Source of the DNA: a virus
IMG/VR virus record: IMGVR_UViG_3300030106_002308
Coordinates: 1-36,497 of that record
Direction: 5' to 3' (one strand)
DNA: 36,497 bases
This document shows, one piece after another, positions 2,305 to 36,497 of the stretch. The notes below the pieces were generated by a model. It was not told the DNA's origin, did not search any database, and saw nothing but the letters and a program-made list of their open reading frames with translations. Numbering within the stretch: the first letter of the stretch is position 1; every line of letters begins with the position of its first letter. The position numbers and the translations under genes are program-made.

Positions 2305-2535
2305 ATGCCAAGTGAACAAGAATATATAGATGCAATAGCAGACTTAAACACTCTGTTAGCAGTTCGTGACCAAAGAATAAAAGAGCTTGAACTGCAAATT
2401 ATAAAAGCAAATAAACTAATGCAAGGAGAGGATAATGCCTTACCACACAACCAAAAAGAAAATGGGAAAAGGGATGGGAATGAAGAAGAAAAAAAACGGA
2501 ATGAGAAAAAAGAAGAGAAAATAAATGCCCAGTAA
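2305..2535 (+). CDS. Small coiled-coil protein (76 aa)
   Basis: A good ribosome site (GGGAG, four bases before ATG) precedes it. Residues 1-43 are a regular amphipathic helix, probably a short coiled coil (I-A-D-L-N-T-L-L-A-V...I-K-E-L-E-L-Q-I-I). The last 33 residues are low-complexity K/E/N and coincide with the basic mini-gene at 2435-2524 in another frame. The tail of this protein may therefore be a by-product of that nested gene. Function unknown. Confidence 0.6.
   Translation: MPSEQEYIDAIADLNTLLAVRDQRIKELELQIIKANKLMQGEDNALPHNQKENGKRDGNEEEKKRNEKKEEKINAQ
2435..2524 (+). CDS. Lysine-rich mini-protein (29 aa), nested
   Basis: It has a strong ribosome site (AAGGAG, then ATG after six to nine bases) and its stop directly abuts the ATG at 2525. 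The protein starts M-P-Y-H-T-T-K-K-K and is about half lysine plus arginine, with several methionines and glycines. Similar M-P-Y-H-starting basic mini-proteins occur in marine phages (recalled, not searched). It lies inside the end of the coiled-coil gene in a different frame. Its charge suggests nucleic-acid binding or an anionic partner; the function is unknown. Confidence 0.65.
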   Translation: MPYHTTKKKMGKGMGMKKKKNGMRKKKRK

Positions 2536-2725
2536 AACTAAGAAAAAAAGTATTACTGTCAAAGGTGTTAGTCTAACGGGCCTTACTCCCAGGCAACAGA
2601 CTGCTATGAAAAAACATGGTAAACACCACACAGCAAAGCATCTTAGAGACATGAAGAAAAGAATGTCTAAAGGTACTTCGTTTACAGCAGCCCATAAACA
2701 ATCGCAGAAAGCAGTAGGAAGATGA
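2525..2725 (+). CDS. Small basic protein (66 aa)
   Basis: Starts immediately after the stop of the 29-aa mini-protein in the same frame. It is highly basic, with a motif L-T-P-R-Q-Q-T-A-M-K-K-H-G-K-H-H-T-A-K-H and a helical second half. The K/H/R content suggests nucleic-acid contact, but no named domain is visible. It overlaps the next gene by four bases (ATGA), so translation is probably coupled. It belongs to the run of basic mini-proteins between 2435 and 3797. Confidence 0.75.
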   Translation: MPSKTKKKSITVKGVSLTGLTPRQQTAMKKHGKHHTAKHLRDMKKRMSKGTSFTAAHKQSQKAVGR

Positions 2726-2943
2726 AACTATTTACATCCTTGCTACCTTTGATGCCACAACCATACAAGAATATCGTTAAGTTCTTTTTGGCTACACTTA
2801 AAAATGTAGATGAGAAAGAAGAGCTTGTAAGAATAGGAAACCTATTCGCAGATATACTGGAAGATGGAAAGGTTACTCCTCAAGAGTGGCTTACATTAGC
2901 AGGTAAAAATGGATTAGGTATACTCAAAGGCAATGGCAAGTAA
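2722..2943 (+). CDS. Small helical protein (73 aa), unknown
   Basis: ATGA overlap with the preceding gene. Unlike its neighbours it is not strongly basic. It is predicted helical, with the segment A-D-I-L-E-D-G-K-V-T-P-Q-E-W at about residues 44-57, which looks like an acidic loop followed by a helix, and a weakly hydrophobic N-terminus. No clear membrane span is present, so a holin role is not supported. It overlaps the next gene by 11 bases. Confidence 0.75.
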   Translation: MKLFTSLLPLMPQPYKNIVKFFLATLKNVDEKEELVRIGNLFADILEDGKVTPQEWLTLAGKNGLGILKGNGK

Positions 2944-3139
2944 AACTAAGAAAAAGAAAAAACGAAAGTTCGCATCAGTTCCCAAGACAAAGGGAGGTGT
3001 GCCAAAGAAGTATGTTAGGGGTGCAAAGAACCCTAAGGCTAGAGAAGCGGAGATCAAAAGAACTGCAAGACTCTACCGACAAGGCAAGCTTACTAAGGCC
3101 ATGATGGACAAAATAAGTAAACAAAGGAGTAGAGGATAA
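2933..3139 (+). CDS. Small basic protein (68 aa), conserved marine-phage type
   Basis: Starts inside the end of the previous gene. The N-terminus is lysine-rich (T-K-K-K-K-K-R-K), followed by V-P-K-K-Y-V-R-G-A-K-N-P-K-A-R, then a helical segment with E-I-K-R-T-A-R-L-Y-R-Q-G-K-L-T. A similar pattern is known to me from cyanophage and other marine phage proteins of unknown function. Strong positive charge and lack of hydrophobic stretches suggest a soluble nucleic-acid-associated protein. It ends on TAATG with the next gene. Confidence 0.8.
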   Translation: MASKTKKKKKRKFASVPKTKGGVPKKYVRGAKNPKAREAEIKRTARLYRQGKLTKAMMDKISKQRSRG

Positions 3140-3390
3140 TGGCATCAGGAAGATATAAAAGCATATCAGGTGCAAGTAGATACTCTAAGTCTACTCTTGA
3201 TAAGGTATATAAAAGAGGGCTTGGTGCATACTATTCATCTGGTAGTAGACCAAAGGTTTCAGCTCACCAGTGGGCTATGGGAAGAGTAAAGTCTTTCGTA
3301 AGTGGTAAAGGTGGTGCAAGAAAAGCTGATTCAGATCTTCTTAGAGGTGGTAAAAAGAAAAAAACTACTACTAAGAGGAAGAAGAAATAA
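3139..3390 (+). CDS. Small basic protein (83 aa), DUF5824-like
   Basis: TAATG overlap with its neighbour on each side. The core Y-K-R-G-L-G-A-Y-Y-S-S-G-S-R-P (about residues 24-38), then A-M-G-R-V-K-S-F-V and K-A-D-S-D-L-L, matches from memory a family of unknown function found in phages and large viruses (I recall DUF5824; not checked). The last dozen residues are almost all lysine, arginine and threonine, giving a disordered basic tail. Likely nucleic-acid associated by charge; role unknown. Confidence 0.8.
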   Translation: MASGRYKSISGASRYSKSTLDKVYKRGLGAYYSSGSRPKVSAHQWAMGRVKSFVSGKGGARKADSDLLRGGKKKKTTTKRKKK

Positions 3391-3665
3391 TGCCAAGAAA
3401 GAAGTTTCAAAATCCTAAAGGTGGTCTTAATGCAGCAGGTCGTGCATTTTTTAAAAGGACTGAGGGATCAAATCTCAAGAGACCACTAAAGAAAGGTACA
3501 TCACCAAGGAGAGTTAGTTTTGCTGCACGATTTGGTGGTATGGCAGGGCCTATGAAAGACAAGAAAGGTAGACCTACCAGGTTAGCTCTTGCACTTAGAG
3601 CTTGGGGATTTCGTAGTAAAGAATCTGCTAGAAACTTTGCAAAAAAACATAAAAAGAAAAAGTGA
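3390..3665 (+). CDS. Small basic protein (91 aa), DUF6321-like
   Basis: TAATG overlap with the previous gene. The central motif G-P-M-K-D-K-K-G-R-P-T-R-L-A-L-A-L-R-A-W-G is a recognisable signature of a small phage/virus family of unknown function (recalled as DUF6321). N-terminal G-L-N-A-A-G-R-A-F-F-K-R-T-E-G-S-N-L-K also fits that family. It ends in K-K-H-K-K-K-K. The conserved body with its basic tail makes this one of the better-supported members of the basic cassette. Confidence 0.85.
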   Translation: MPRKKFQNPKGGLNAAGRAFFKRTEGSNLKRPLKKGTSPRRVSFAARFGGMAGPMKDKKGRPTRLALALRAWGFRSKESARNFAKKHKKKK

Positions 3666-3671
3666 GGAACT

Positions 3672-3797
3672 ATGCCAAAACCAAAAGGTAAAAAGAAATA
3701 CAGTAAAGCACAGATGAAGATAGCTAGAGTTGCACCTCCAAGAAACAAGATTACTGGTGCTGACTTTAAGAAACTAAGAAAGAAGAAAAAGAAATGA
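3672..3797 (+). CDS. Lysine-rich mini-protein (41 aa)
   Basis: Ribosome site GAGGA, four to five bases ahead of ATG. The protein starts M-P-K-P-K-G-K-K-K-Y and ends K-K-L-R-K-K-K-K-K, with a short central segment A-R-V-A-P-P-R-N-K-I-T-G-A-D-F. It overlaps the next gene by four bases (ATGA). Its basic ends resemble the 2435-3665 proteins. Function unknown. Confidence 0.7.
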   Translation: MPKPKGKKKYSKAQMKIARVAPPRNKITGADFKKLRKKKKK

Positions 3798-3955
3798 AGT
3801 TTATAGGAAAGTTAAGACCACAAATATTTTTAGCAATAATTGTTTTAGGTATATTGTCATGCCTGGGTATCATTTATGAATATAATGAAATTGCTACAGG
3901 ATGTGTAGGAGGAATTATAGGATTGGGATTTAAAGTGTTAGAATCAGAAGAGTGA
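3794..3955 (+). CDS. Two-span mini membrane protein (53 aa), holin candidate
   Basis: ATGA overlap with the gene before and GTGA overlap with the next. A short basic head (M-K-F-I-G-K-L-R) is followed by a hydrophobic segment at about residues 10-29 (I-F-L-A-I-I-V-L-G-I-L...), a polar turn (E-Y-N-E-I-A-T-G) and a second glycine-rich hydrophobic segment (39-48), ending acidic. Size and topology fit a small phage holin, but many small phage membrane proteins look alike and no lysin gene is seen beside it. The holin call is inference. Confidence 0.6.
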   Translation: MKFIGKLRPQIFLAIIVLGILSCLGIIYEYNEIATGCVGGIIGLGFKVLESEE

Positions 3956-4053
3956 GTAAAAAGAAAGCGAAAAAAAAATTAATAACCTCAAGTGTTTTGC
4001 TTGGCCTGTGTTTAGCAGGAATGATAATTATAGGAGAATTGAACGCAAGATGA
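3952..4053 (+). CDS. Single-span mini membrane protein (33 aa)
   Basis: Starts with GTG on a four-base overlap with the preceding stop and ends on a four-base overlap with ATG at 4050, so it fits the coupled chain although it lacks its own clear ribosome site. It has a basic N-terminus (S-K-K-K-A-K-K-K), then one hydrophobic span (L-I-T-S-S-V-L-L-G-L-C-L-A-G-M-I-I-I). It could be a lysis accessory or a small membrane peptide. Its existence as a gene is plausible but unproven. Confidence 0.5.
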   Translation: MSKKKAKKKLITSSVLLGLCLAGMIIIGELNAR

Positions 4054-5321
4054 AGATTCCAAAATTAAAAGTTAATATACCATTTAGAAAAATTGGCAGT
4101 TATATATTAGCCACAATAACTATGATTACTGTAGCTTTAGGATCTATTGGTCTTGCAGTTACGCTTTCTAATCCAGTTAATTTGTGGTGGTCAATTACTC
4201 CCATAAAAACACCTTTTGGGATTGTTGGTTATACGATTGGTGTTGAGTACCTAGAACTTCTACAATCATACTATTGGTACGGAATTGCTGTATCAGCGAG
4301 TTTAATTTTATTTGGATACGCAATACATATTCGTAGCTTAAAGTCGTTGTATGAGGGAATTAAGGCTACTCCTAGGGCTTTATTATATTCTCCAGTAACA
4401 CTTTACAGAGAACTTGTAGAGTTTAGGGATTGGTTATTTGAAAAGATTGAATATTTAAATAGTGAGTCTGCTAAGTGGAGAAGATTTTTCAATGTTATAA
4501 AGTCACCATATTCTCTGTTAAGATCCTTCGGGCTATCCCCGCAACTTGCCATAGCTCTTCTAGGAATAGGTACAGCTTCTGGAGCAGCAGTTGGGGTGGC
4601 AGAGGTTATTGAACAGAGAAGTTTCTCTAATGGTGATGCTGGTATTTATTCAGCACCAGGTGAACTGCCTGATGAAGAACTAGAAAAGAGAATGGCATGG
4701 AGAAAAGATAATCCCTCAGATAATACACTTAGAATTGTAGTAGGCAATACGGCAGTTGAAACAATCTCAATAACAGATGTGTCTATAAATAATTACACTA
4801 ATTCAACACTTCCTAGTGGTAAGACAGAAGCCTTATTGATTGATGGCAAGACAGTCGGAATTGACATAGGAGAATTGATGTTTGATAGAGTAACTTGCAA
4901 ATCTTTAAATGTATCCAATGTCAAGGCACACAAGATAGTGATCAAGGACAATATAAGTGATGGTCAGTCTATTGCTCAAACAGCAGGTACTCAGCGTGAT
5001 TTGAGAATATCAGGTGGTTACGATATGGCTAAAGAATTAATTACGACTGGATCTAGATTTGACCGACTGTGGCTTGATACTGATACTGCAACAACAACAC
5101 CTAAAGTAAACAAATTAATTCTTTCTAACATTGTTACGAAAAGTGGAACTTGCGAACTTAAGAATTTAAACTTGGGCTTATTAACTATACAGTACGGAAC
5201 ATTCGGCCATGATCAAAACTTTGCTACTAAAGAATTTGTAGTTGCTACAACAACAAACGCAACTCTTTGGGAAGTGTCAGACAACATCGAAGTCTTACTA
5301 ACCGAACCTGCAACTCAGTAA
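4050..5321 (+). CDS. Membrane-anchored protein with beta-rich C-terminal half (423 aa)
   Basis: I start it at ATG 4050 (M-K-I-P-K-L-K-V) because that codon forms the same ATGA overlap seen throughout this operon; an upstream in-frame GTG at 4008 would overlap the mini-gene by 46 bases. Hydrophobic segments lie at about 15-38, 76-94 and 163-186. The second half (about 230-423) is rich in V/I/T/N strand patterns, like a stalk or beta-solenoid. No lysozyme, amidase, peptidase or transglycosylase motif is visible. Its place after the two mini membrane proteins suggests lysis or envelope interaction, but this is only context. Confidence 0.75.
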   Translation: MKIPKLKVNIPFRKIGSYILATITMITVALGSIGLAVTLSNPVNLWWSITPIKTPFGIVGYTIGVEYLELLQSYYWYGIAVSASLILFGYAIHIRSLKSLYEGIKATPRALLYSPVTLYRELVEFRDWLFEKIEYLNSESAKWRRFFNVIKSPYSLLRSFGLSPQLAIALLGIGTASGAAVGVAEVIEQRSFSNGDAGIYSAPGELPDEELEKRMAWRKDNPSDNTLRIVVGNTAVETISITDVSINNYTNSTLPSGKTEALLIDGKTVGIDIGELMFDRVTCKSLNVSNVKAHKIVIKDNISDGQSIAQTAGTQRDLRISGGYDMAKELITTGSRFDRLWLDTDTATTTPKVNKLILSNIVTKSGTCELKNLNLGLLTIQYGTFGHDQNFATKEFVVATTTNATLWEVSDNIEVLLTEPATQ

Positions 5322-5476
5322 TGCCACTCTACGACTACATCTGTAAAAACGATAAGTGCAGCCAAGAAACCTTTGAGGTTATCACTAACTACGAAGAAAG
5401 AATCCAAAGGTGTCCTATATGCAAAGAGAAGACAATAGAACGAAAGAAGTTTTATCAATTTGATTTTAGGATGTAG
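5321..5476 (+). CDS. FmdB-type zinc-ribbon protein (51 aa)
   Basis: TAATG overlap with the preceding gene. The start M-P-L-Y-D-Y-I-C fits the FmdB-family zinc ribbon, with one cysteine pair at 8/13 (C-K-N-D-K-C) and a second C-P-I-C pair near residue 34, which should bind one zinc ion. Family members in phages are small and of unclear role, often placed among regulators. It is the last gene of the late plus-strand run before the hairpin at 5476-5496. Confidence 0.85.
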   Translation: MPLYDYICKNDKCSQETFEVITNYEERIQRCPICKEKTIERKKFYQFDFRM

Positions 5477-5496
5477 GCCTAGTTAAAGTCTAGGCC
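5476..5496. terminator. Hairpin between converging operons
   Basis: GGCCTAG and CTAGGCC form a perfect 7-bp stem around a 7-base loop (5483-5489). It begins in the stop codon of the FmdB-like gene and lies 15 bases from the end of the minus-strand gene at 5511. No T-run follows on either strand, so it may end or stabilise transcripts from both sides without being a classical intrinsic terminator. Confidence 0.55.
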
Positions 5497-5510
5497 CAAG
5501 ACTTAGATAT

Positions 5511-5831
5511 TTAGTTATCGTAAAACTGTTCGTGTTTATAATTTAGTTTGTTTTCATAAGCGTTTTGAGTTGTGTTAATCCCTGTTAATTCTTTTAAAGC
5601 GTATTCGTTTTGAAAATTATCAACAATTCTAACTAACAATCTCATTTTTAATTCGTTTACTAAATCGCTGTTATGAACTAACCAATATAATTGTTCAATA
5701 TCACTATCTTCTCTTACAGAAATCATGTGAAGATTATTTACACCTTTATTATTTACATTTCTTCTATAAGAAACTAAATGATATTCAAGCTGTTTGTGCA
5801 GAGACCTTATCTCTTCTTTGTTTGGTTTCAT
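5511..5831 (-). CDS. Unknown 106-aa protein in a single-gene unit
   Basis: Preceded by CGGAGG, five to six bases before ATG, and by a near-perfect sigma-70 promoter at 5863-5891. The sequence is charged and helical (K-E-E-I-R-S-L-H-K-Q-L-E-Y...D-L-V-N-E-L-K-M-R-L-L-V-R-I-V-D-N), soluble, with no membrane span or named domain. Its strong separate promoter and its isolation from the 13827-6105 operon suggest early, strong expression and perhaps a host-takeover role. That role is inference from context only. Confidence 0.8.
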   Translation of the reverse strand: MKPNKEEIRSLHKQLEYHLVSYRRNVNNKGVNNLHMISVREDSDIEQLYWLVHNSDLVNELKMRLLVRIVDNFQNEYALKELTGINTTQNAYENKLNYKHEQFYDN

Positions 5832-5862: not shown

Positions 5863-5891
5863 ATTATAACACACCTTATGGTCTATGTCAA
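5863..5891 (-). promoter_or_regulatory. Consensus sigma-70 promoter
   Basis: On the minus strand, TTGACA (5886-5891) and TATAAT (5863-5868) are separated by exactly 17 bases, matching both consensus hexamers at 12 of 12 positions. It faces the 106-aa gene starting at 5831, giving a short leader of roughly 25 bases. It should be read by host RNA polymerase. Confidence 0.92.
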
Positions 5892-6104: not shown

Positions 6105-7247
6105 TTAAGTTTGGAATGTCTGTATATCAACAAACATTGGTGCATCATTTCTTATTCTATCCTCTATCATCTTTACATATTTTGGATTTAACTCAATTAG
6201 CACGGCATCACGACCTAATCTATCAGCTACTAAACCTGTAGTTCCTGCACCTGCAAATGGATCTAACACAACTTGAGATTGCACTTCTGCTTTACAGTCG
6301 CAGTCAGGTATCCACCCAATAAATTTAACCGAATCAACTAATCCACTTGGCCCTGATATATGACCATCAGTCCTACCTGTTCTTTCAGCATAATATTTTC
6401 TTTGTGATTCCATATCTCTATTAGGATTCTTTTTTCTTTCAATCTCTCTTATATATGGTTTCTTGCAATTTGAACATTGTCCATGTTCACTTGATCCTGC
6501 TTTAATACACAACTCAGGTAAAGCAACTGGAAAGGTAGCAAAATGAGCTTCGGAATAACCATTGGTAGATATGTTCCAAACATCCCTTTTATTTCTTTTT
6601 CCACTGTCTGTGTATTTTTTACCACTGTATATTAAGTAATCTCCTGATTTATCGTTACCATATTTATTGCCGCCAAACCTTTGATTAGTTTCTCCTATAT
6701 CCATTGAGTCTTCTTTGATAGCTTCGTTATCGTAATAATACCTTGCGTTTTTAGATAACAAGAAAATGTGTTCATGTGATTTAGTGCATCTGTCTTTTAC
6801 AGGCTCAGGCATAGCGTTTGGTTTGGCCCATATTATGTCTTGCCTTAGAAACCAACCATCATCCTGTAAAGCAAAGGCTACTCTCCAAGGGATACCAACT
6901 AAATTTTTACTAGCTAGTCCTGGTACTTTATTGTTAACAGGATCTTTCTTAGTATTTCTGTGTTCTAAAGCTTTTGGGTCTCCAGTATCGTCTTTACCTG
7001 TGCTAACATAAGTGTCACCCAAGTTTAACCATACAGTTCCGTCAGGCCTTAAAACTCTTTTTACTTCTTTAAAAATACTAACAAGAGCCTTTACATATTC
7101 TTGTGGTGTGCTTTCTAATCCAAGTTGATTATCAACTCCATAATCTCTTAATCCCCAATAAGGTGGGCTCGTAACAACTGTTTGTATTGATTCGTCATCA
7201 ATATTTTTAAGTTGCTCTATACAATTACCTTGCAAAATCTTAATCAT
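6105..7247 (-). CDS. DNA N4-cytosine/N6-adenine methyltransferase (380 aa)
   Basis: This protein methylates an exocyclic amino group in DNA using S-adenosylmethionine. T-S-P-P-Y-W (residues 26-31) is the catalytic motif IV. The AdoMet-binding motif lies near the C-terminus (V-L-D-P-F-A-G-A-G-T-T-G-L, about 328-340), the order of the circularly permuted beta class. Between them is a four-cysteine zinc-like site (C-S-N-C-K-K-P and C-D-C). S-P-P-Y-W is common in N4-cytosine enzymes, but adenine methylation cannot be excluded. It overlaps the C5 methyltransferase gene by eight bases and ends the early operon. It is likely protective against host restriction; no partner nuclease with obvious specificity is seen. 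Confidence 0.93.
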   Translation of the reverse strand: MIKILQGNCIEQLKNIDDESIQTVVTSPPYWGLRDYGVDNQLGLESTPQEYVKALVSIFKEVKRVLRPDGTVWLNLGDTYVSTGKDDTGDPKALEHRNTKKDPVNNKVPGLASKNLVGIPWRVAFALQDDGWFLRQDIIWAKPNAMPEPVKDRCTKSHEHIFLLSKNARYYYDNEAIKEDSMDIGETNQRFGGNKYGNDKSGDYLIYSGKKYTDSGKRNKRDVWNISTNGYSEAHFATFPVALPELCIKAGSSEHGQCSNCKKPYIREIERKKNPNRDMESQRKYYAERTGRTDGHISGPSGLVDSVKFIGWIPDCDCKAEVQSQVVLDPFAGAGTTGLVADRLGRDAVLIELNPKYVKMIEDRIRNDAPMFVDIQTFQT

Positions 7248-8586
7248 TTATTTTCCTAGCAAGAACAGTAAGTGCATACGCTGCCTGGAGAGGTACGACT
7301 CCGTTTCCAAGTATTCTGAGTCTATCAACCCTGTGTAATCCAGTGGCCACCCCATCAGCCACTCTACGAATGTCGGATTCAAACGCAGATTTTTGTAAAG
7401 CTGGTGCGAGTTTTGGGTAGTCTCTGACGATTCTTTCCCACTCTGCTGAGTTTGGGCTTGGTGGGAATGTTTTAAGTTTAATTTTTTCCTGCTCTGCATT
7501 TCCAAGTTTTTCGTTGCTTGTGAGTTCCCATCGTATCTGTATTTCGTTGGGTCGCTTGCCATCGGTGTCTGCCAATTTTCTAGTGACTCCGCTACTGACA
7601 TCCCCACTGTCTTTCCTCTTTTCCCTTTCTTCACTGACGGAGGAACTGTGTTTACTGTGTCTTTCCAATCCCTTGCGTTTGGTGTTCCCCACATACTTGC
7701 TTGGCTGCCTAGACTCGGACTGTTCCGTTGATCTGGATTTGTTTCTGGATAAGCTTGATTGTCCATCGTGCTTGGTGTCATCCACTTGTCCATCTTCACT
7801 TGATCCCCTAGTCCTACTGAGTGAGAATCCTTCTTGTTCTTGGTTAGTCTTCTCCCCTTTTCGTTCAGTTCCATTTGGTTGTGTTCTATGAAATCGTGTG
7901 TCGTTGGTGTCTTCCAGTTCTGAGTTGCTTCTTGCTCTAGAAATATTCCGTATTTCGTTCCCTTCTTGTGACTGACATTCTCCCCATCCGTCAACTCTCT
8001 CTGTCTGTGTGAGTCCATCGCCTTTGGTGTGGGCCAACTGGCTACGACTCCACTCTCCCCATCGGATGCCGCGCTTGTACGCCAAGATGAAGACTCTTTC
8101 TCTCCTATGGGATGCTCCAATGTCTGCTGCTTTAACACTTCCCCATTGTGCATCGAACCCCATTTCGGAAAGGTCTCCAAGTATGGTGTCAATTCCATGT
8201 CCAGTAATGAGGCCTAAAACATTTTCCAAGAAGAATCCTTTGGGTCGTACCGACAAACCGATTTGCTTGATGTCATCCCAAAGCCATCTTTCATCTTCTG
8301 TGCCTTTTCTTTTTCCTGCGATTGACCATGGTTGGCATGGGAATCCTCCAATGATCCAATCCACTTTTCCAATCCAAGGGCTGCCATCGAAGGTTGAGGA
8401 ATCTGACCAAATAGGTGCGTCATCCAGGATTCCTTTTTCCATGCCTTCGACCAAAACTGCGACTGACGAAATTTCTCTCTCGACATAACAGACTGTTCTA
8501 GCATTGGGAATAGCCAATCTAAATCCGATGTCGAGTCCTCCTCCTCCCGAATATAATGAGATGACATTTTCGGTATTCTTAACCAC
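7240..8586 (-). CDS. C5-cytosine DNA methyltransferase (448 aa)
   Basis: Motif I L-Y-S-G-G-G-G-L-D-I-G-F (11-22), motif IV G-G-F-P-C-Q-P-W-S with catalytic Cys84, motif VI E-N-V (121-123), motif VIII near R-R-E-R-V-F-I-L-A-Y (161-170) and the closing L-R-I-L-G-N-G-V-V-P-L-Q-A-A-Y-A-L are all present, so the enzyme should be active. Start is GTG, six bases after AGGAGG. The target-recognition part (about 171-395) is unusually hydrophilic and repeat-like, with five L/V-x-x-T motifs at spacings of about 30-45 residues (L-A-H-T, L-E-D-T, V-D-D-T, V-G-N-T, L-A-D-T). A second reading frame is open through this same part. The gene is visibly less AT-rich than its neighbours, which may indicate transfer or constraint from two frames. 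Confidence 0.95.
   Translation of the reverse strand: MVKNTENVISLYSGGGGLDIGFRLAIPNARTVCYVEREISSVAVLVEGMEKGILDDAPIWSDSSTFDGSPWIGKVDWIIGGFPCQPWSIAGKRKGTEDERWLWDDIKQIGLSVRPKGFFLENVLGLITGHGIDTILGDLSEMGFDAQWGSVKAADIGASHRRERVFILAYKRGIRWGEWSRSQLAHTKGDGLTQTERVDGWGECQSQEGNEIRNISRARSNSELEDTNDTRFHRTQPNGTERKGEKTNQEQEGFSLSRTRGSSEDGQVDDTKHDGQSSLSRNKSRSTEQSESRQPSKYVGNTKRKGLERHSKHSSSVSEEREKRKDSGDVSSGVTRKLADTDGKRPNEIQIRWELTSNEKLGNAEQEKIKLKTFPPSPNSAEWERIVRDYPKLAPALQKSAFESDIRRVADGVATGLHRVDRLRILGNGVVPLQAAYALTVLARKIND
7248..8198 (-). other. Overlapping same-strand open frame inside the C5 methyltransferase (316 codons)
   Basis: This frame is open for 316 codons inside the methyltransferase gene and ends eight bases from its stop. 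It carries five W-x-T-P-x-x-x-D motifs (W at about 55, 95, 139, 170 and 209) and ends with L-N-P-T-F-V-E-W-L-M-G-W-P (about 273-285). I recall proteins of this kind (W-P-T-P-x-A-x-D repeats plus L-N-P-x-F-V-E-W-L-M-G) as annotated hypothetical phage proteins near C5 methyltransferases. The same frame is also open further upstream (8588-8214, with an ATG two bases before the GTG start) and is broken by one stop near 8214. It is either a true overprinted gene or a side effect of the repeat coding. Confidence 0.35.
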
Positions 8587-8616
8587 ATTTAACCTCCTGT
8601 GTTGTTTGTTTTTTTA

Positions 8617-9554: not shown

Positions 9555-10192
9555 AATAATTTAATTTGTTTAGTTTCTTCTTCAATTCTTTTATTAGCCA
9601 TATCGTAATATTCTTTATCAATCTCAATACCGACAAATTCTTCTGTGCCAAAATTATGACAAGCAATTGCACTACTACCACTACCTAAATGCGTATCTAA
9701 TATCTTGTCAGATTGTTGAGAATATTTTTCTAATAGCCAAGAATATAATTCTCTTGGTTTTTGTGTAGGATGTATTTTGCCTTTTTTTCTATTATCATAT
9801 TTATACAAAGATGCAGGTTTCTCAAATGATGTCCAAGCAATCTCAACTGCTGAAAAGTTTGGAAATGGTTGACATTTATCCCATACAATTACACATCTGT
9901 AAGGAGGTAAATCAAAGTAATTACCACCCCATATAATTTGATTTTTACTTACCCTAAACAATTCATTAAAATATTCTTTGCTTGGTTTTTTATCCCATTT
10001 AATAAACTTATTAGCATTTTTATTTAAAATCCTATTTTTTAATTTACCACCACCTTTTGCATGTATACCTGAATTGTTACCAAATCCATAAGGTGGATCT
10101 ACAATAGCCAAATCAAAGTAATCATCTTCGTACTTGGAAAGAATATTCATGCAGTCATCATTGATAATGCTAAAATTATCTCCTAACATCAT
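9551..10192 (-). CDS. N6-adenine-type DNA methyltransferase (213 aa)
   Basis: D-P-P-Y-G (32-36) is the catalytic motif IV of amino-methyltransferases, and T-H-L-G-S-G-S-S-A-I-A near the C-terminus is the AdoMet-binding motif I, again beta-class order. I-H-P-T-Q-K-P is also typical. I start it at ATG 10192 (a second ATG follows at once), with GGAAGG just upstream; an upstream GTG at 10234 is possible. It overlaps the helicase-loader gene by 17 bases. It is a second amino-methyltransferase beside the one at 6105-7247, with different length and motif context, so the two probably modify different sites. Confidence 0.92.
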   Translation of the reverse strand: MMLGDNFSIINDDCMNILSKYEDDYFDLAIVDPPYGFGNNSGIHAKGGGKLKNRILNKNANKFIKWDKKPSKEYFNELFRVSKNQIIWGGNYFDLPPYRCVIVWDKCQPFPNFSAVEIAWTSFEKPASLYKYDNRKKGKIHPTQKPRELYSWLLEKYSQQSDKILDTHLGSGSSAIACHNFGTEEFVGIEIDKEYYDMANKRIEEETKQIKLL

Positions 10193-10979
10193 AAGCCTTC
10201 CACATTGATACGAGTTTACCTTCTGCTTTCTCACCTTGCTTAGACAATACCCTACTCATCACCCTTTGCCCTACTATGTTTGATAGTGCAGCTTCTGGGT
10301 TCTTTGCTTGGTTATCTTTGATGTTTCCTGCTACGAGTGTTGGCATGAATCTGTCTGATCGGTGTACTATGACCTCTTGAAGAGTTGTTCTTAGGTAATC
10401 GTTATTATCCCAAGAAACATACATTTCATCAAGGATTAACATTTCTTTCGTTAGCAAAGCATCTTTGAATTTATGAACATTGTCCATATCTCTCATCCTG
10501 TGACCAAAGATTGTGCCAGTCACATACCAAACATCCAGGCCCGCATTGATAAGTTCGTTGGCTGCCGACTCGCACAAGTGAGTTTTGCCTGTTCCTGTTG
10601 GGCCTGTAAGCATAATTAGGTATGGAGTCTTCTTCTGAATCCATCTAGCAACAATGTTCTTTGCGTTTCTACATTGACTCCTAGCTTCAACAGATGTCTG
10701 TTTATCTGGGTTGTAGTCTGAAAAGGTGTGTAAGGCTCTGTTAAGGCCCTCAAAACCAGCAAGATCATATTTTATCTTTGACAAATCTTGAGTCTGATCC
10801 TCTTTGCAGTCTGGACACCTGATGTATTTAACATTATGTTTGTCTACTTCTCTTGGTCTTAGCCACAATAAATCGTCACAAGTTCTGCATGAGATCAGTT
10901 GTGTACGATCATAGCTTGTCGAATATGTCTTCCCCTGTGGGCTTTCCCGCTTGAAGTGATCGAAGTTTAGTTTTTCCAT
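10176..10979 (-). CDS. DnaC/IstB-like AAA+ ATPase, helicase loader (267 aa)
   Basis: A four-cysteine zinc ribbon (C31, C34, C55, C58) is followed by an ATPase core with Walker A G-P-T-G-T-G-K-T (126-133) and Walker B M-L-I-L-D-E (180-185). This is the pattern of phage DnaC-like loaders that bring the host replicative helicase to the origin. Ribosome site AAGGAGG lies nine bases before ATG. It overlaps the winged-helix initiator gene by 71 bases, a strong sign that the two act together. No phage helicase or polymerase is seen, so host enzymes are expected to replicate the genome. Confidence 0.88.
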   Translation of the reverse strand: MEKLNFDHFKRESPQGKTYSTSYDRTQLISCRTCDDLLWLRPREVDKHNVKYIRCPDCKEDQTQDLSKIKYDLAGFEGLNRALHTFSDYNPDKQTSVEARSQCRNAKNIVARWIQKKTPYLIMLTGPTGTGKTHLCESAANELINAGLDVWYVTGTIFGHRMRDMDNVHKFKDALLTKEMLILDEMYVSWDNNDYLRTTLQEVIVHRSDRFMPTLVAGNIKDNQAKNPEAALSNIVGQRVMSRVLSKQGEKAEGKLVSMWKAYDVRR

Positions 10980-15804: not shown

Positions 15805-15926
15805 GATGTGGTAAAACATATAAGAGGGTGATTACTATTCGTTGCACAAACGAGATATTCGCAAATGGATTATGTAAGAAACACCACTACTATCACATAA
15901 AAAAAAATGGAGTAAGACATGGCTAA
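15801..15926 (+). CDS. Cys/His mini-protein between terminase genes (41 aa)
   Basis: ATGA overlap with the terminase small-subunit gene and eight-base overlap with the large-subunit gene, so it is well embedded. Cysteines at 3, 15 and 25 with H-H at 28-29 (L-C-K-K-H-H-Y-Y) suggest a single zinc-binding site. Basic overall. Small zinc proteins of this kind occur in phages with unknown roles; a packaging or HNH-remnant origin is possible but not shown. Confidence 0.6.
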   Translation: MRCGKTYKRVITIRCTNEIFANGLCKKHHYYHIKKNGVRHG

Positions 15927-17433
15927 CCTATATGAAGCGTATCCTTGGCAAAAGAAGATGCACGAGTCAAAAGCTAAAATTAAATTTGTACAGGCTGGAA
16001 GACGAGCAGGTAAAACTAGATCATCTCTACAGGAAGCACTTAGACAAATCAGAGAAGCATCAATAAACCCTATTGTGTTTCCAGGCAAGAAAGAAAAGCT
16101 AACAGCAGAACAAGCTGGACTTGTACCTCCTATTCACATATGGACTGTTGCACCTACAAGAGCTCAGATGTTGCAGGTATGGAACGAGATGCAGGCCTTT
16201 ATTCCGAAACACATAGTTCGTAAAACAAGAACCAAAGCACAAGCTGGTGGTAGAGGTGGTGGATTTAAACAAGATGACCTTCATGTGTGGTTAGATTTAA
16301 AAGACGAGAAAGGCAACTGGTTACCCAACAGATGGAGACAATCTGTATTTTGGGAACTCAAGTCTGCTGACAACCCTGAAGGATTACAGACTGTAGGTCT
16401 TGATTTTCTACACATGGCGGAATCCCAAGACATCAAAGAAGCTGCGTGGAATAAGGTCAGACCTACGCTTAACTCACCAGGAAGACTGGGTAGGGCTATT
16501 GTTGAGGGTGTTCCTCCAGAAAGTTCTCAGCATTGGTTTGCAAGGAACTTTAAGATGGCAAAAGAAAACCCTTCTACGAGAAGGCAGGCTTTTCACGCAT
16601 CAACCTTTGACAACCCCTACCTGACAGAAGAAGACAGACTTGAGATTGAAGAGGAAAAGGCATCGCTAACTGAAGGAATATGGGAAAGATTTTATATGGC
16701 AAAGCAACCAGAGGGTGCAGGAAACTTTTTTAGAAACATTACAAAGGCATACAGCAAAGACGCTTACGAACTTATGCAGCCACTTGATGGTGTAAGTTAT
16801 GTTGCAGGTCTTGACCTAGGTAGAGCCAACGATCCAACAGTCATGATAATCAAAGATAGAATGACAAGAACATCTGTATTTGCTGTAGAACTTGCAAAGA
16901 CTGATTGGTCACTTCAAGTAGAAACAATCAAGAACGAAGCTATTAGATGGAACATAGAAGAGGTTTACATGGACTCAACAGGTCTAGGTGGTAAGTTGGG
17001 AGAAGATGTGCTGTATCGTGAACTCCTTGAACATTCTATTCCTGTCATAGGTTTTAACTTTACACCAAGCAAAAAGTATCAGTTGTTCTTAGATTACGCA
17101 TTGTCACTTGAAAAAGAGACTGTTGCATTTCCACAGAGTTGGGGTAAACTAATAAGTCAGTTAGAAGATATTGCTCATAGGGAAACGGCAAATCGAGGTC
17201 ACCAGTTCTATTCGGTGTCTGGAGGTAGGGATGACTGGGTTGATGCAGAATGTTTAGCCTTAATGGCTTGTGATCCTGCACAAGAAGTCATGGAACTACT
17301 TACAGCTCCTAGATCAAAACGAGGTATTAAACCTCTAAATAGCAACTACAGAAGCAAGGGTTCGAGGATCTTGAGGTGGAGAGAAGAGAGAAAACTCCTT
17401 GCGATGGAAGAAGAAGGAACTAAAGCCTTATGA
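15919..17433 (+). CDS. terL: Terminase large subunit (504 aa)
   Basis: The packaging motor ATPase and nuclease. Walker A is G-R-R-A-G-K-T (27-33). A later acidic cluster in V-G-L-D-F-L-H-M-A-E fits Walker B. The nuclease half starts at A-G-L-D-L-G-R-A-N-D-P-T, with V-Y-M-D-S-T-G-L-G-G and D-D-W-V-D-A-E-C as further acidic sites of the RNase-H-like fold. Length is usual for the family. GGAG lies six bases before ATG. It is coupled to the portal gene by ATGA. This is the clearest phage hallmark in the window. Confidence 0.95.
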   Translation: MANLYEAYPWQKKMHESKAKIKFVQAGRRAGKTRSSLQEALRQIREASINPIVFPGKKEKLTAEQAGLVPPIHIWTVAPTRAQMLQVWNEMQAFIPKHIVRKTRTKAQAGGRGGGFKQDDLHVWLDLKDEKGNWLPNRWRQSVFWELKSADNPEGLQTVGLDFLHMAESQDIKEAAWNKVRPTLNSPGRLGRAIVEGVPPESSQHWFARNFKMAKENPSTRRQAFHASTFDNPYLTEEDRLEIEEEKASLTEGIWERFYMAKQPEGAGNFFRNITKAYSKDAYELMQPLDGVSYVAGLDLGRANDPTVMIIKDRMTRTSVFAVELAKTDWSLQVETIKNEAIRWNIEEVYMDSTGLGGKLGEDVLYRELLEHSIPVIGFNFTPSKKYQLFLDYALSLEKETVAFPQSWGKLISQLEDIAHRETANRGHQFYSVSGGRDDWVDAECLALMACDPAQEVMELLTAPRSKRGIKPLNSNYRSKGSRILRWREERKLLAMEEEGTKAL

Positions 17434-33183: not shown

Positions 33184-34931
33184 GTAATGAGTTTCAACAT
33201 AAATCGGTAGGAAGTCAGATGACTCAGACCGAGTACGAGCATACTGACGGAACAGGACATATATTTGATAGTCAAGCAGCAGGAGATATTCTCTTTGCAA
33301 GTTCTACTACAGTTCTATCAAGACTAGGTATAGGTACAGCAGGTAAGGTTCTTGCAGTAAACTCTGGTGCATCAGCTCCAGAATATGTTGCAGCACTAAC
33401 AGGAGTTACCTCTGTCCTTAATACAGCTTTGGTTGTAGGTAGAGATGCAGACAATGACATTGACTTTGCAACTGACAACAATATTATTTTTAGAGCAGCA
33501 GGTGCTGACCAAATCAAATTAGTAGATGGTGTGTTACAACCAGTAACTGACTCTGATGTAGACTTAGGTACTACTGGAGTAAGATTTAAAGATGCTTATA
33601 TAGACACAGTAACAACTACAGGCGATGTAACAGTTGGTGGTGACCTTACCATAACAGGTGATGATTTGTTTATGGGAACTAATACAGCAGGTCATTTACT
33701 TATTGCAGATGGTACAAACTTTAATCCTACAGCAGTTGGTGATTTATCAGAAATATCTACAGTCGCAAACGATGATGTATTTATTGCAGTTGACACATCA
33801 GGTGGTGGTTTAAAGAAGATAGCTAGAAGTGCTATCGTAGCTGGTTTAGCAACATCAGGTGCAATATCAAATGTTGTAGAGGACACTTCACCAGAGCTTG
33901 GTGGCGATTTAGATGTACTCACACATGGAATAGTAACAGGTGCTAGTAATAGAAACATAGCACTTACACCACATGGTACAGGTGTAGTAAGAATTGATGG
34001 TACAAATGGTGTAGACATAGAATCAGGTGCCATATCAATTAAAAATGGTGGTGCAGAATCTTATGTAAGATTTTATTGTGAATCATCAAACGCACACTAC
34101 ACACAATTACAAGCATCACCACATTCTGCTTATTCTGGCAATGTAACAGTAGTATTACCTGCTGCTGCTACAAATCTAGTTGGTGATGACACAACCCAGA
34201 CACTAACTAACAAAAGACTTACATCACCAAAGATAAACGAAGATGTAGCTCTTACATCAACTGCTACAGAACTTAATTTACTTGATGGTGTATCAGGATT
34301 AGTACAAGCTGACTTTACTAAGTTAGCAGCAGTAGATGCTACTGCAACAGAACTTAATATTATGGATGGTGATACTACAGTAGGAACAGATGCCATTGCA
34401 GATGATGATGGTATTGTTACCAACGATGGCGGCACAATGAAACAAACTAAAGTCCAGACACTTGCTACTTACATGGAAGGTGAGATAGACAACCTTACTG
34501 CACTTACACAAGCAGTATTTGTGGGTAAGGATGCTTCAATTACAGATGATACAGCAACAGGTGTAGTAGCAACTATGACTGCATTGACTGGAGTATCTAT
34601 TGGTGAGTTAGTTCACATTGATGGTAATGGTAAAATTGACCAAGCACACGCAGATGCTAGTGCTGATATGCCAGCAATAGGTATAGCTCTTGAAGCAAAC
34701 AGTTCTGGAAGTGATGCAGACATTAAAGTTTTATTACAAGGATTTTATAAAGATGCAGACCAATTTGCCTTTACAGTTGGTACAGCAGTATTTGCAGACC
34801 ATAGTGGAGAAGGTAACTTTACACAATCACCATCTACAACTGATGGACATTTTATTCAAAGAGTAGGTATAGCTTTGACAGCAGACACACTTTACTTTAG
34901 TCCTAGTTTGGATGTTATAGAGAGGGATTAA
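33180..34931 (+). CDS. Tail fibre protein, complete copy (583 aa)
   Basis: ATGA overlap with the nozzle gene. The N-terminal third should attach to the tail. Then come repeat signatures T-E-L-N-L-L-D-G and T-E-L-N-I-M-D-G (about residues 363-400), common in marine phage fibres. After M-E-G-E-I-D-N-L-T-A the C-terminal tip (about 440-583) differs strongly from the copy at 1-528, while the last nine residues match apart from one position. A conserved stem with a variable tip suits a receptor-binding fibre. Confidence 0.82.
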   Translation: MSNEFQHKSVGSQMTQTEYEHTDGTGHIFDSQAAGDILFASSTTVLSRLGIGTAGKVLAVNSGASAPEYVAALTGVTSVLNTALVVGRDADNDIDFATDNNIIFRAAGADQIKLVDGVLQPVTDSDVDLGTTGVRFKDAYIDTVTTTGDVTVGGDLTITGDDLFMGTNTAGHLLIADGTNFNPTAVGDLSEISTVANDDVFIAVDTSGGGLKKIARSAIVAGLATSGAISNVVEDTSPELGGDLDVLTHGIVTGASNRNIALTPHGTGVVRIDGTNGVDIESGAISIKNGGAESYVRFYCESSNAHYTQLQASPHSAYSGNVTVVLPAAATNLVGDDTTQTLTNKRLTSPKINEDVALTSTATELNLLDGVSGLVQADFTKLAAVDATATELNIMDGDTTVGTDAIADDDGIVTNDGGTMKQTKVQTLATYMEGEIDNLTALTQAVFVGKDASITDDTATGVVATMTALTGVSIGELVHIDGNGKIDQAHADASADMPAIGIALEANSSGSDADIKVLLQGFYKDADQFAFTVGTAVFADHSGEGNFTQSPSTTDGHFIQRVGIALTADTLYFSPSLDVIERD

Positions 34932-36370
34932 TGTCTAATCAAGTAAAAAGTTTTAATGGTGTAGCAATAGGAGATATTAAAAATATTAATGGTCTTACTG
35001 ATGCAAATATTAAAAATATAAATGGACAAACATTTACTGGTTCAGTTCCACCAGATGCTTTTACAATAACTAATAACCAATTTAATGGTAATAGAAGTTG
35101 GGGTACACAAATGGCATGGTGTCAAGAAACTAACACATTAGTTGTAGTGTATGGTGATGACGGCAATGGTGATTACCCTACATACAGATTAGGAAAACTA
35201 AGTGCAAGCACAGGTGATGTAACAATAACTTGGCAAAGCGAACAAGTTTTAGGAACAGCAGGAGCAGGATATTCTAACCAAGCTGTATTTATGAGTGGTG
35301 AAAGTAGTGGTGGTAATGGCAGAATGGGATTAGTATATTTAGAGAGTGGTGCTAGTTCTACTAACAGATACAGTATTGCATTTGGCACAATTACAAATAG
35401 TGGTTCTACACCAAGCATGAGTGTAGGCACGCCTGAAGTAATACACGCTACATCTAGTGGTACTTATAACCAAGGTGATGTTAGTTCAACAGCAAGATAC
35501 TGGGAAGATATGGGTGCTGTTGTTACAGCATTAGAATATGGTGATGACGATGGTGATGCTAACTTTGTTAAAGCATTTAAAATGGACACTTCTGATAATA
35601 GTGTAATTACAAGTGGCAACAATGAACTTATGTTTGCTGATACTACTACAGAATTTTATAACATTGAATATGATTCTACTATAGATAGACTTGTAGTTTT
35701 TTCTTTACAATACGTTGGTGCGTCAGCTACAGCTTATATATATGGCAATATTTTAGATTATAATGCTAGTTCTACAAATGGCTTAGAATTACAGTTAGAG
35801 TTAAGTTTACCTGGAACTCAATTATTTACTGGTACTGTTGCTTCTTCTTATGATGCAGGTCCATGGTGTGCATATAATGCTAGTGCAAACATACATCATG
35901 TTTTAATGAGTGAAACTGCTGATAGCACTAAAAAAGTTCGTAATGTAAAGATTAGTGGTTCTGATGGTTCTTTTACCATGGATCCACATACAACTTATGA
36001 GCTTGCGATTCCGAGTGGTATGCTTCACTATACTTCAATTTGGTATAACCACCATAGAGGTTTAATGGGTGTCATAGGATCAAACCAATCAAGGTCAGAT
36101 GCACATCCAGATGGTTCAGTAATTCAAGCATTAGGTTATACTTTTTCAGAAGATACAGGCACAGAAGCCAACAGCACATTTTCTGCAAATGGATCAGCAC
36201 AAACTGTAAAAGTTAGCAGTCATGATCTTTTTCTTGGTAGGTATTTAGGTATGCAACAAACAATGCACGGAAGCGATATGCACACAGGTAACATGGGTGC
36301 AATCATGCCATTCTATGGTGGCTCACAAGGCCAAGAAGGTGTCATGATAGGTTTTGATACAGGTGGATAA
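34931..36370 (+). CDS. Propeller-like tail adhesin, allele/copy 2 (479 aa)
   Basis: TAATG overlap with the fibre gene. Most framework residues equal those of the 483-aa protein at 528-1979, including the N-I-K-N-I-N-G repeat and the closing H-G-S-D-M-H-T-G-N...M-I-G-F-D-T-G-G. Differences sit in short stretches such as D-D-G-D-A-N against T-S-G-Q-V-D-G-N, and S-L-Q-Y-V-G-A-S-A-T against Y-Y-I-T-D-Q-P-S-S-S, as expected of surface loops. Likely distal adhesin; inference. Confidence 0.75.
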   Translation: MSNQVKSFNGVAIGDIKNINGLTDANIKNINGQTFTGSVPPDAFTITNNQFNGNRSWGTQMAWCQETNTLVVVYGDDGNGDYPTYRLGKLSASTGDVTITWQSEQVLGTAGAGYSNQAVFMSGESSGGNGRMGLVYLESGASSTNRYSIAFGTITNSGSTPSMSVGTPEVIHATSSGTYNQGDVSSTARYWEDMGAVVTALEYGDDDGDANFVKAFKMDTSDNSVITSGNNELMFADTTTEFYNIEYDSTIDRLVVFSLQYVGASATAYIYGNILDYNASSTNGLELQLELSLPGTQLFTGTVASSYDAGPWCAYNASANIHHVLMSETADSTKKVRNVKISGSDGSFTMDPHTTYELAIPSGMLHYTSIWYNHHRGLMGVIGSNQSRSDAHPDGSVIQALGYTFSEDTGTEANSTFSANGSAQTVKVSSHDLFLGRYLGMQQTMHGSDMHTGNMGAIMPFYGGSQGQEGVMIGFDTGG

Positions 36371-36497
36371 TGGCTACAGCATTTAGAAGAAAATCAGATA
36401 ACAAAGTTGTAGTTTTGCTTACATACCTTGCAGACATAAATAACATAAATTTTACAAGTACCAATATGTCCTGCACTATGAACAATGGTGAAAAACC
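36370..36497 (+). CDS. Small tail-locus protein, 5' part only (cut by window edge)
   Basis: The first 42 codons of a second copy of the 105-aa protein at 1979-2296; the shared residues differ at only one position (T to A at residue 21). The frame is open to the edge. If the genome is circular, this gene simply continues as the 1979-2296 gene. Confidence 0.8.
   Translation, partial: MATAFRRKSDNKVVVLLTYLADINNINFTSTNMSCTMNNGEK

Follow-up and report, generated by a model that had tools for sequence, protein, structure and literature searches.

Holins are small proteins of one to four membrane segments with a lethal timing function, and spanins consist of an inner-membrane coiled coil and an outer-membrane lipoprotein. 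In the holin-endolysin(-spanin) cassette, coupled small membrane proteins are encoded in the late operon, commonly after the tail genes. Two cultured phages, Pelagibacter phage HTVC204P (gp24-gp32, MW273926) and MEP402, provide the neighbourhoods used for comparison here. In both, a DUF6321 gene is a syntenic marker adjoining lysis or holin-like genes: in HTVC204P it is surrounded by an M15 peptidase, a 125-aa protein resembling a multi-span holin, a 66-aa two-segment protein, small basic proteins and a zinc-finger protein. The MEP402 gene is immediately preceded by one for a holin-like membrane protein of 144 aa, "holin-like" being in both phages a reading of the sequences. Recognised lytic proteins are reported, in the figures given by PMC12596118, for 97.4% of dsDNA bacteriophages vs 10.9% of archaeal dsDNA viruses. 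According to PMC4456609, archaeal viruses encode a membrane protein, PVAP (virus-associated pyramid protein), through which S-layer cells are opened with no peptidoglycan hydrolase involved.

The DNA analysed here, IMG/VR record IMGVR_UViG_3300030106_002308, is a tailed-phage sequence of 36,497 bases, referred to below as the window. Assignment to the Caudoviricetes follows from a large terminase gene (TerL, 15919-17433) matching phrog_2 at E=4.8e-28; portal, scaffold, capsid and tail genes, as named by gene order and sequence reading, appear to run from TerL to 36370. The window begins and ends with similar stretches (488-2106 vs 34893-36497, 86% identity; 1-89 vs 34413-34501, 98.9% identity), which are probably variants of one tail-fibre region and not two tandem fibre genes. 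The record is thus probably a circular map of ~34.4 kb with a strain-variant overlap, so that the tail module would lead directly into the membrane block described below. In a relative, G010, the order tail, 423-aa gene, early genes, TerL is found within a single contig. Elsewhere on the minus strand of the window, a 448-aa frame at 7240-8588 overlaps two same-strand ORFs (316 and 124 aa) read in a different frame, both of which match parts of phrog_1008 (DNA methyltransferase) and possibly represent a split gene.

The DUF6321 protein of the window (Table 1) is 74-75% identical to its HTVC204P and MEP402 counterparts. Small basic, two-segment membrane and zinc-finger proteins are also common to the window and HTVC204P, which differs in having the M15 peptidase. 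Judged from the DUF6321 neighbourhoods of these two phages, the block at 3794-5321 occupies a lysis neighbourhood, without a detected endolysin. Between the tail fibres and the block, at 2525-3797 (+), lies a series of very small lysine-rich proteins, several with poly-lysine ends; comparable runs are present in HTVC204P and MEP402.

With the holin-endolysin cassette the block shares its late-operon position after the tail genes and its coupled small membrane proteins, but it contains a 423-aa protein with a predicted exported domain and lacks a recognised muralytic enzyme and a recognised holin family. Our tentative reading, to which we give a probability of about 0.42, is that the block is an endolysin-free late host-envelope or release module of a tailed phage, standing in the place of a holin/endolysin cassette. 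The initial annotation had proposed either an endolysin of an unfamiliar type or lysis by another route, and the second of these gains support from the position of the block, the occurrence of the membrane module in unrelated phage types and the absence of a detected known lysin from the block and the relatives tested. The likeness to PVAP egress is one of idea only, and the block differs from it in its bacterial signals, which do not indicate an archaeal host, and in the larger size of its predicted exported domain.

Table 1. Coordinates of the membrane block, the genes around it and the signals bearing on the host, numbered as in the window.
Feature	Position	Strand	Basis
73-aa amphipathic protein, conserved in the same late gene cluster	2722..2943	+	homologues in 15/69 loci
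91-aa DUF6321 basic protein	3390..3665	+	PF19846, E=4.9e-24
53-aa protein, two hydrophobic segments, GKLRPQIFLAI type, holin-sized	3794..3955	+	hydropathy
33-aa protein, GTG start, basic N-terminus and one membrane segment	3952..4053	+	hydropathy
423-aa membrane protein with predicted exported beta-rich domain	4050..5321	+	hydropathy, alignment, AF2
51-aa zinc-ribbon protein, FmdB-like, PF09723, coupled by TAATG, final gene of + operon	5321..5476	+	
Perfect sigma-70 promoter TTGACA-17-TATAAT, extended -10, opposing early operon	5863..5891	-	1 found, 0.06 expected per shuffled window
DnaC/IstB-like helicase loader	10176..10979	-	PF01695, phrog_50; ORF assigned by sequence, pooled listings without member name

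The block had been correctly delimited by the initial annotation and consists, as it had described, of one coupled set of genes: neighbours among the 53-, 33- and 423-aa genes overlap by 4 bases each, and end-to-start overlap extends from the ORF at 3672-3797 through all three to the zinc-ribbon gene. The block closes the plus-strand operon and faces an opposing early operon. A perfect inverted repeat without a T run (GGCCTAG/CTAGGCC, 5475-5497) separates these convergent operons and is a possible bidirectional terminator. The view that the three block proteins are the sole membrane proteins of the window needs one addition, as hydropathy also marks a segment at residues 924-942 of the 1417-aa protein. 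The 53-aa protein matched no holin family in Pfam or PHROGs; across 1708 codons compared with 34 homologues, 572 codon differences were synonymous and 697 non-synonymous.

On sequence evidence the 423-aa protein founds an undescribed family that occurs widely in IMG/VR and is new to the libraries searched. Relatives were absent from Pfam, PHROGs and all 50,697 records of a phage collection (window protein, E<=0.01), and GTDB contigs scanned with both the 423-aa protein and TerL contained none; PDB sequences gave nothing better than E>=0.49. For two relatives, the cultured-phage matches were short and confined to E 0.08-0.7 (tailspikes, a "cellulose synthase"), and were taken as chance. IMG/VR yielded 36 loci with the protein as query and 167 with an alignment as query, 80 of which were kept; this recurrence, together with that of the 53-aa protein, shows the block to be conserved and not a chance arrangement. 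A homologue was present at 102 loci, giving 83 full ORFs and 61 distinct proteins, which were aligned with the window protein (n=62).

The aligned proteins share a layout of an optional hydrophobic hairpin (residues 1-95), a conserved basic region (96-165), a conserved membrane segment (166-184) and a beta-rich domain (186-423). The three hydrophobic segments described earlier for the window protein were recovered as best 19-mers at 19, 79 and 166, the middle one being weak (1.58). The constant core comprises the basic residues around 115-165, the membrane segment and the C-terminal domain of 238 aa. The N-terminal hydrophobic stretch is present in 56 of the 62 proteins and missing in 6, eleven short forms measure 346-370 aa, and the N-terminal half is exchangeable among relatives.

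Gene neighbourhoods were surveyed at 69 distinct loci with flanks of 4.5 kb, many contigs being shorter. The most constant partner was the ~50-aa RPQI two-segment protein, represented in the window by the 53-aa protein, which was found at 50 loci (same strand in 44; upstream of the 423-aa gene in 16, downstream in 34). Small single-span proteins of ~41 aa akin to the 33-aa protein lay directly upstream at 14/69 loci, a membrane and coiled-coil-like protein (coiled coil judged by eye) was nearby at 19/69, and zinc-ribbon homologues occurred at 13/69. Inspection by eye of the neighbour clusters present in at least six loci revealed no recognisable hydrolase. Searches of cultured phages with the 50-aa and 73-aa proteins returned nothing at E<=1; Roseobacter and Methylophilales phages encode relatives of the 143-aa membrane protein seen in the L014 type. 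A thermonuclease-like protein often adjoins the ~50-aa protein (20/69 loci, e.g. L029:7160-7657 and L035:12543-12902).

The family spans at least three phage types: that of the window, a type represented by L029, L035 and G052 with a terminase set of its own, and the G022 type, which has an SU10-like capsid protein, polymerase A, RecA, DnaB and a sigma-70 domain. In the first two the 423-aa gene follows the tail genes, and in G022 it sits between a 456-aa gene and the head genes. In the two types beyond the window's, the surroundings of the gene differ and the ~50-aa protein is again present. These positions bear on a second reading, that the 423-aa protein is a component of the virion or infection apparatus, for instance a piece that inserts into the membrane and is delivered or assembled together with the tail, lysis being left to undetected genes. 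Its placement directly past the tail-fibre genes in the window lineage is in keeping with such a role, and the G022 gene, beside and ahead of the head genes, suits a virion role no less well than release. A basic region predicted to be cytosolic, together with a conserved membrane segment and several neighbouring membrane mini-proteins, would nevertheless be unusual for a tail part, and we regard a virion role as unlikely.

Among 33 records of the TerL lineage that were searched, 9 carry a match to the 423-aa protein. When only records of at least 29.9 kb are considered, eight of nine encode the protein, the exception being G040, whose sequence stops directly past the tail genes. Accessory exclusion genes are usually less constant within a lineage, and this constancy weighs against the idea that the block serves surface exclusion or modification of the host surface, preventing superinfection instead of releasing virions. 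So does a PADLOC search in which 0 of 10 proteins, including the window protein and four relatives, matched at E<=0.1, with a library that covers mainly host defence. Because a membrane-anchored and probably exported domain, small coupled membrane proteins and the exchangeable N-terminal half would all suit exclusion, this explanation was retained, as a rather improbable one.

Across the 62 aligned proteins, without exception, net charge is +3 to +11 (median +6) over the 60 residues ahead of the third membrane segment and -5 to -1 (median -3) over the 30 residues past it; by the positive-inside rule this asymmetry predicts that the beta-rich domain is outside the cell in all 62. The predicted topology rests on hydropathy and charge because the full-length AF2 model, with a pLDDT of 54.7, was poor outside the C-terminal domain, over residues 1-193; VIA matches to residues 4-96 of that model were long-helix matches and were discarded. 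Residues C283 and C368 are invariant (62/62), and in all 61 relatives the domain has no cysteine besides these two. A C283-C368 disulfide is plausible because, in our reading of the alignment, each of two similar beta units carries one of the cysteines at an equivalent place.

The domain was modelled alone (AF2, residues 186-423, 35 alignment rows) with a pLDDT of 87.6 and a pTM of 0.87. This model is all beta save two short helices and bears out the long beta-rich half that had been seen in the sequence. Five viral proteins in BFVD (A0A516MPL1, A0A516L4T4, A0A1B1IQH1, A0A1B1INJ4 and A0A1B1IS34) share the C-terminal fold at TMq 0.75-0.96, with 14-50% identity, only 14-15% in two of the five. 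Foldseek against the PDB gave matches of probability <=0.06 throughout. VIA returned six rows at Z 2.2-3.1 (putative adhesin, tailspike, pectate lyases, polygalacturonase), which are too weak to name a fold yet are compatible with a beta-solenoid. The adhesin, tailspike and pectate lyase rows count in principle towards a virion role, but their Z values are at noise level.

The same weak likeness to beta-helix pectate lyases, and the polar residues N301, D304, D338, R339, K394, E414 and E419, each identical in at least 95% of the 62 proteins, would also fit a host with ordinary peptidoglycan and an exported domain acting as a membrane-tethered glycan- or peptidoglycan-cutting enzyme of a new kind. 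Neither a lysin nor a lyase was matched by sequence, no Foldseek PDB match exceeded a probability of 0.06, and we know of no beta-helix endolysin; we consider such an enzyme very improbable. Structural comparison with lysins had been suggested for the 423-, 605- and 1417-aa proteins. For the C-terminal domain of the first, no lysin fold appeared among the listed Foldseek or VIA rows, which is a plain absence and not an exclusion of a lysin fold; the other two were checked through sequence profiles only. The 605-aa profile gave nothing better than E>=0.46. The 1417-aa protein was considered as a virion-borne lysin and set aside: its profile of 13 homologues found nothing credible in PDB, Pfam or PHROGs, and the sole "lytic tail protein" match came from 1 of the 13 members at E=0.0043.

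The initial annotation saw no endolysin-type motif in the window, which agrees with the Pfam and PHROGs matches listed. Full Pfam results for 9 window proteins and full PHROGs results for 28 contained no endolysin, and no lysin was among the matches listed for pools of 40 window proteins searched against Pfam (25 of 26 families) and PHROGs (25 of 42 families). No spanins were seen in the window. Six lysin families were then counted across virus records, the window included and cultured controls left out of the denominators: PF08291 matched 0/37 records and 0/37 in a second, overlapping set, PF00959 0/44, PF01510 and PF01464 0/37 each, and PF05838 and PF13539 0/28 each. All six families covered 15 records including the window, and the other 13 of the 28 were covered by all but PF00959.

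Three of five cultured bacterial phages used as controls matched at least one lysin family: HTVC204P matched PF08291, Melnitz-3 PF05838 (and PF08291 below the cut-off) and CRP-345 PF13539 below the cut-off; CRP-345, Melnitz-3 and Tunturi_4 were not part of the PF00959 search. The haloarchaeal phage Hardycor1 gave no match in the three lysin-family searches that included it. Because MEP402 and Tunturi_4 matched none of the lysin families tried on them, silence in these searches is only moderately informative. Among relatives, no lysin was among the matches listed for G052 (41 of 44 ORFs, pooled PHROGs, E<=1e-5, 25 of 26 families) or G022 (48 of 104 ORFs; 25 of 27 Pfam and 25 of 50 PHROGs families). 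Single absences mean little since many relatives are fragments; the pattern across the window and its relatives suggests, and does not prove, that a lysin is missing. An undetected endolysin may be present among the unannotated proteins.

A bacterial host is indicated by three signals, namely the sigma-70 promoter, Shine-Dalgarno (SD) sites and the DnaC-like loader. SD-like 4-mers precede 36 of 45 genes, a few genes with unsure starts being left out, vs 190 of 1270 ATGs, and replication initiator families were also matched in the window (pooled Pfam/PHROGs). An archaeal host had been considered because no endolysin was found; it was rejected on these three signals and on the RecA, DnaB, DNA polymerase A and sigma-70 domain of the G022 relative. 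The promoter lies upstream of a 106-aa ORF (5511-5831) without homologues among the fetched relative loci.

A bacterial host free of peptidoglycan would need no endolysin, and marine SAR202 (Chloroflexota) would be the obvious candidate. In PMC11994032 and PMC10444878, SAR202 is described as lacking peptidoglycan synthesis and having an S-layer; PMC10284905 indicates that peptidoglycan loss predates the marine radiation of the Dehalococcoidia and that Tepidiforma retained peptidoglycan. The GC content of the window (37.7%) agrees with that of streamlined SAR202 (<40%, as stated in PMC11994032) but also with many other marine bacteria, and was not used as host evidence. Neither a SAR202 phage nor a link of SAR202 to such phages was found among the open-access papers listed in the literature searches.

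If the block is a release module acting on a SAR202-like host, the phage would have to breach a membrane and an S-layer but no sacculus, a task to which small membrane proteins together with a stapled, exported domain would be suited. The 53-aa protein might then act as a small holin assisted by the single-span 33-aa protein, and the 423-aa protein would insert with its conserved basic region in the cytosol and its disulfide-stapled domain exposed on the external side of the membrane, where the domain may loosen or shift the surface layer and so let the membrane open without peptidoglycan being cut. A wider proposal, that unrelated marine tailed-phage lineages on peptidoglycan-free bacteria (SAR202-type Chloroflexota) dropped their endolysins and share a new release machine made of the ~50-aa two-segment protein and a membrane-anchored, stapled beta-rich domain on the S-layer side, is speculative and on present evidence unlikely; if true, such a machine would be a bacterial counterpart to the endolysin-free egress of archaeal viruses.

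A widespread ocean phage family with bacterial signals and no detectable lytic protein would point either to peptidoglycan-free hosts or to an undescribed lysis enzyme, and either would be new. Both outcomes make phage exit from S-layered, wall-less bacteria directly testable, and the 423-aa family could serve as a marker for phages of hosts for which no cultured phage was found. The 82 kb G022 record, at locus L022, also carries unusual cargo, comprising a PnrA-like (Bmp) lipoprotein, Hsp20, PAP2 and the sigma-70 domain, which might reveal its host.
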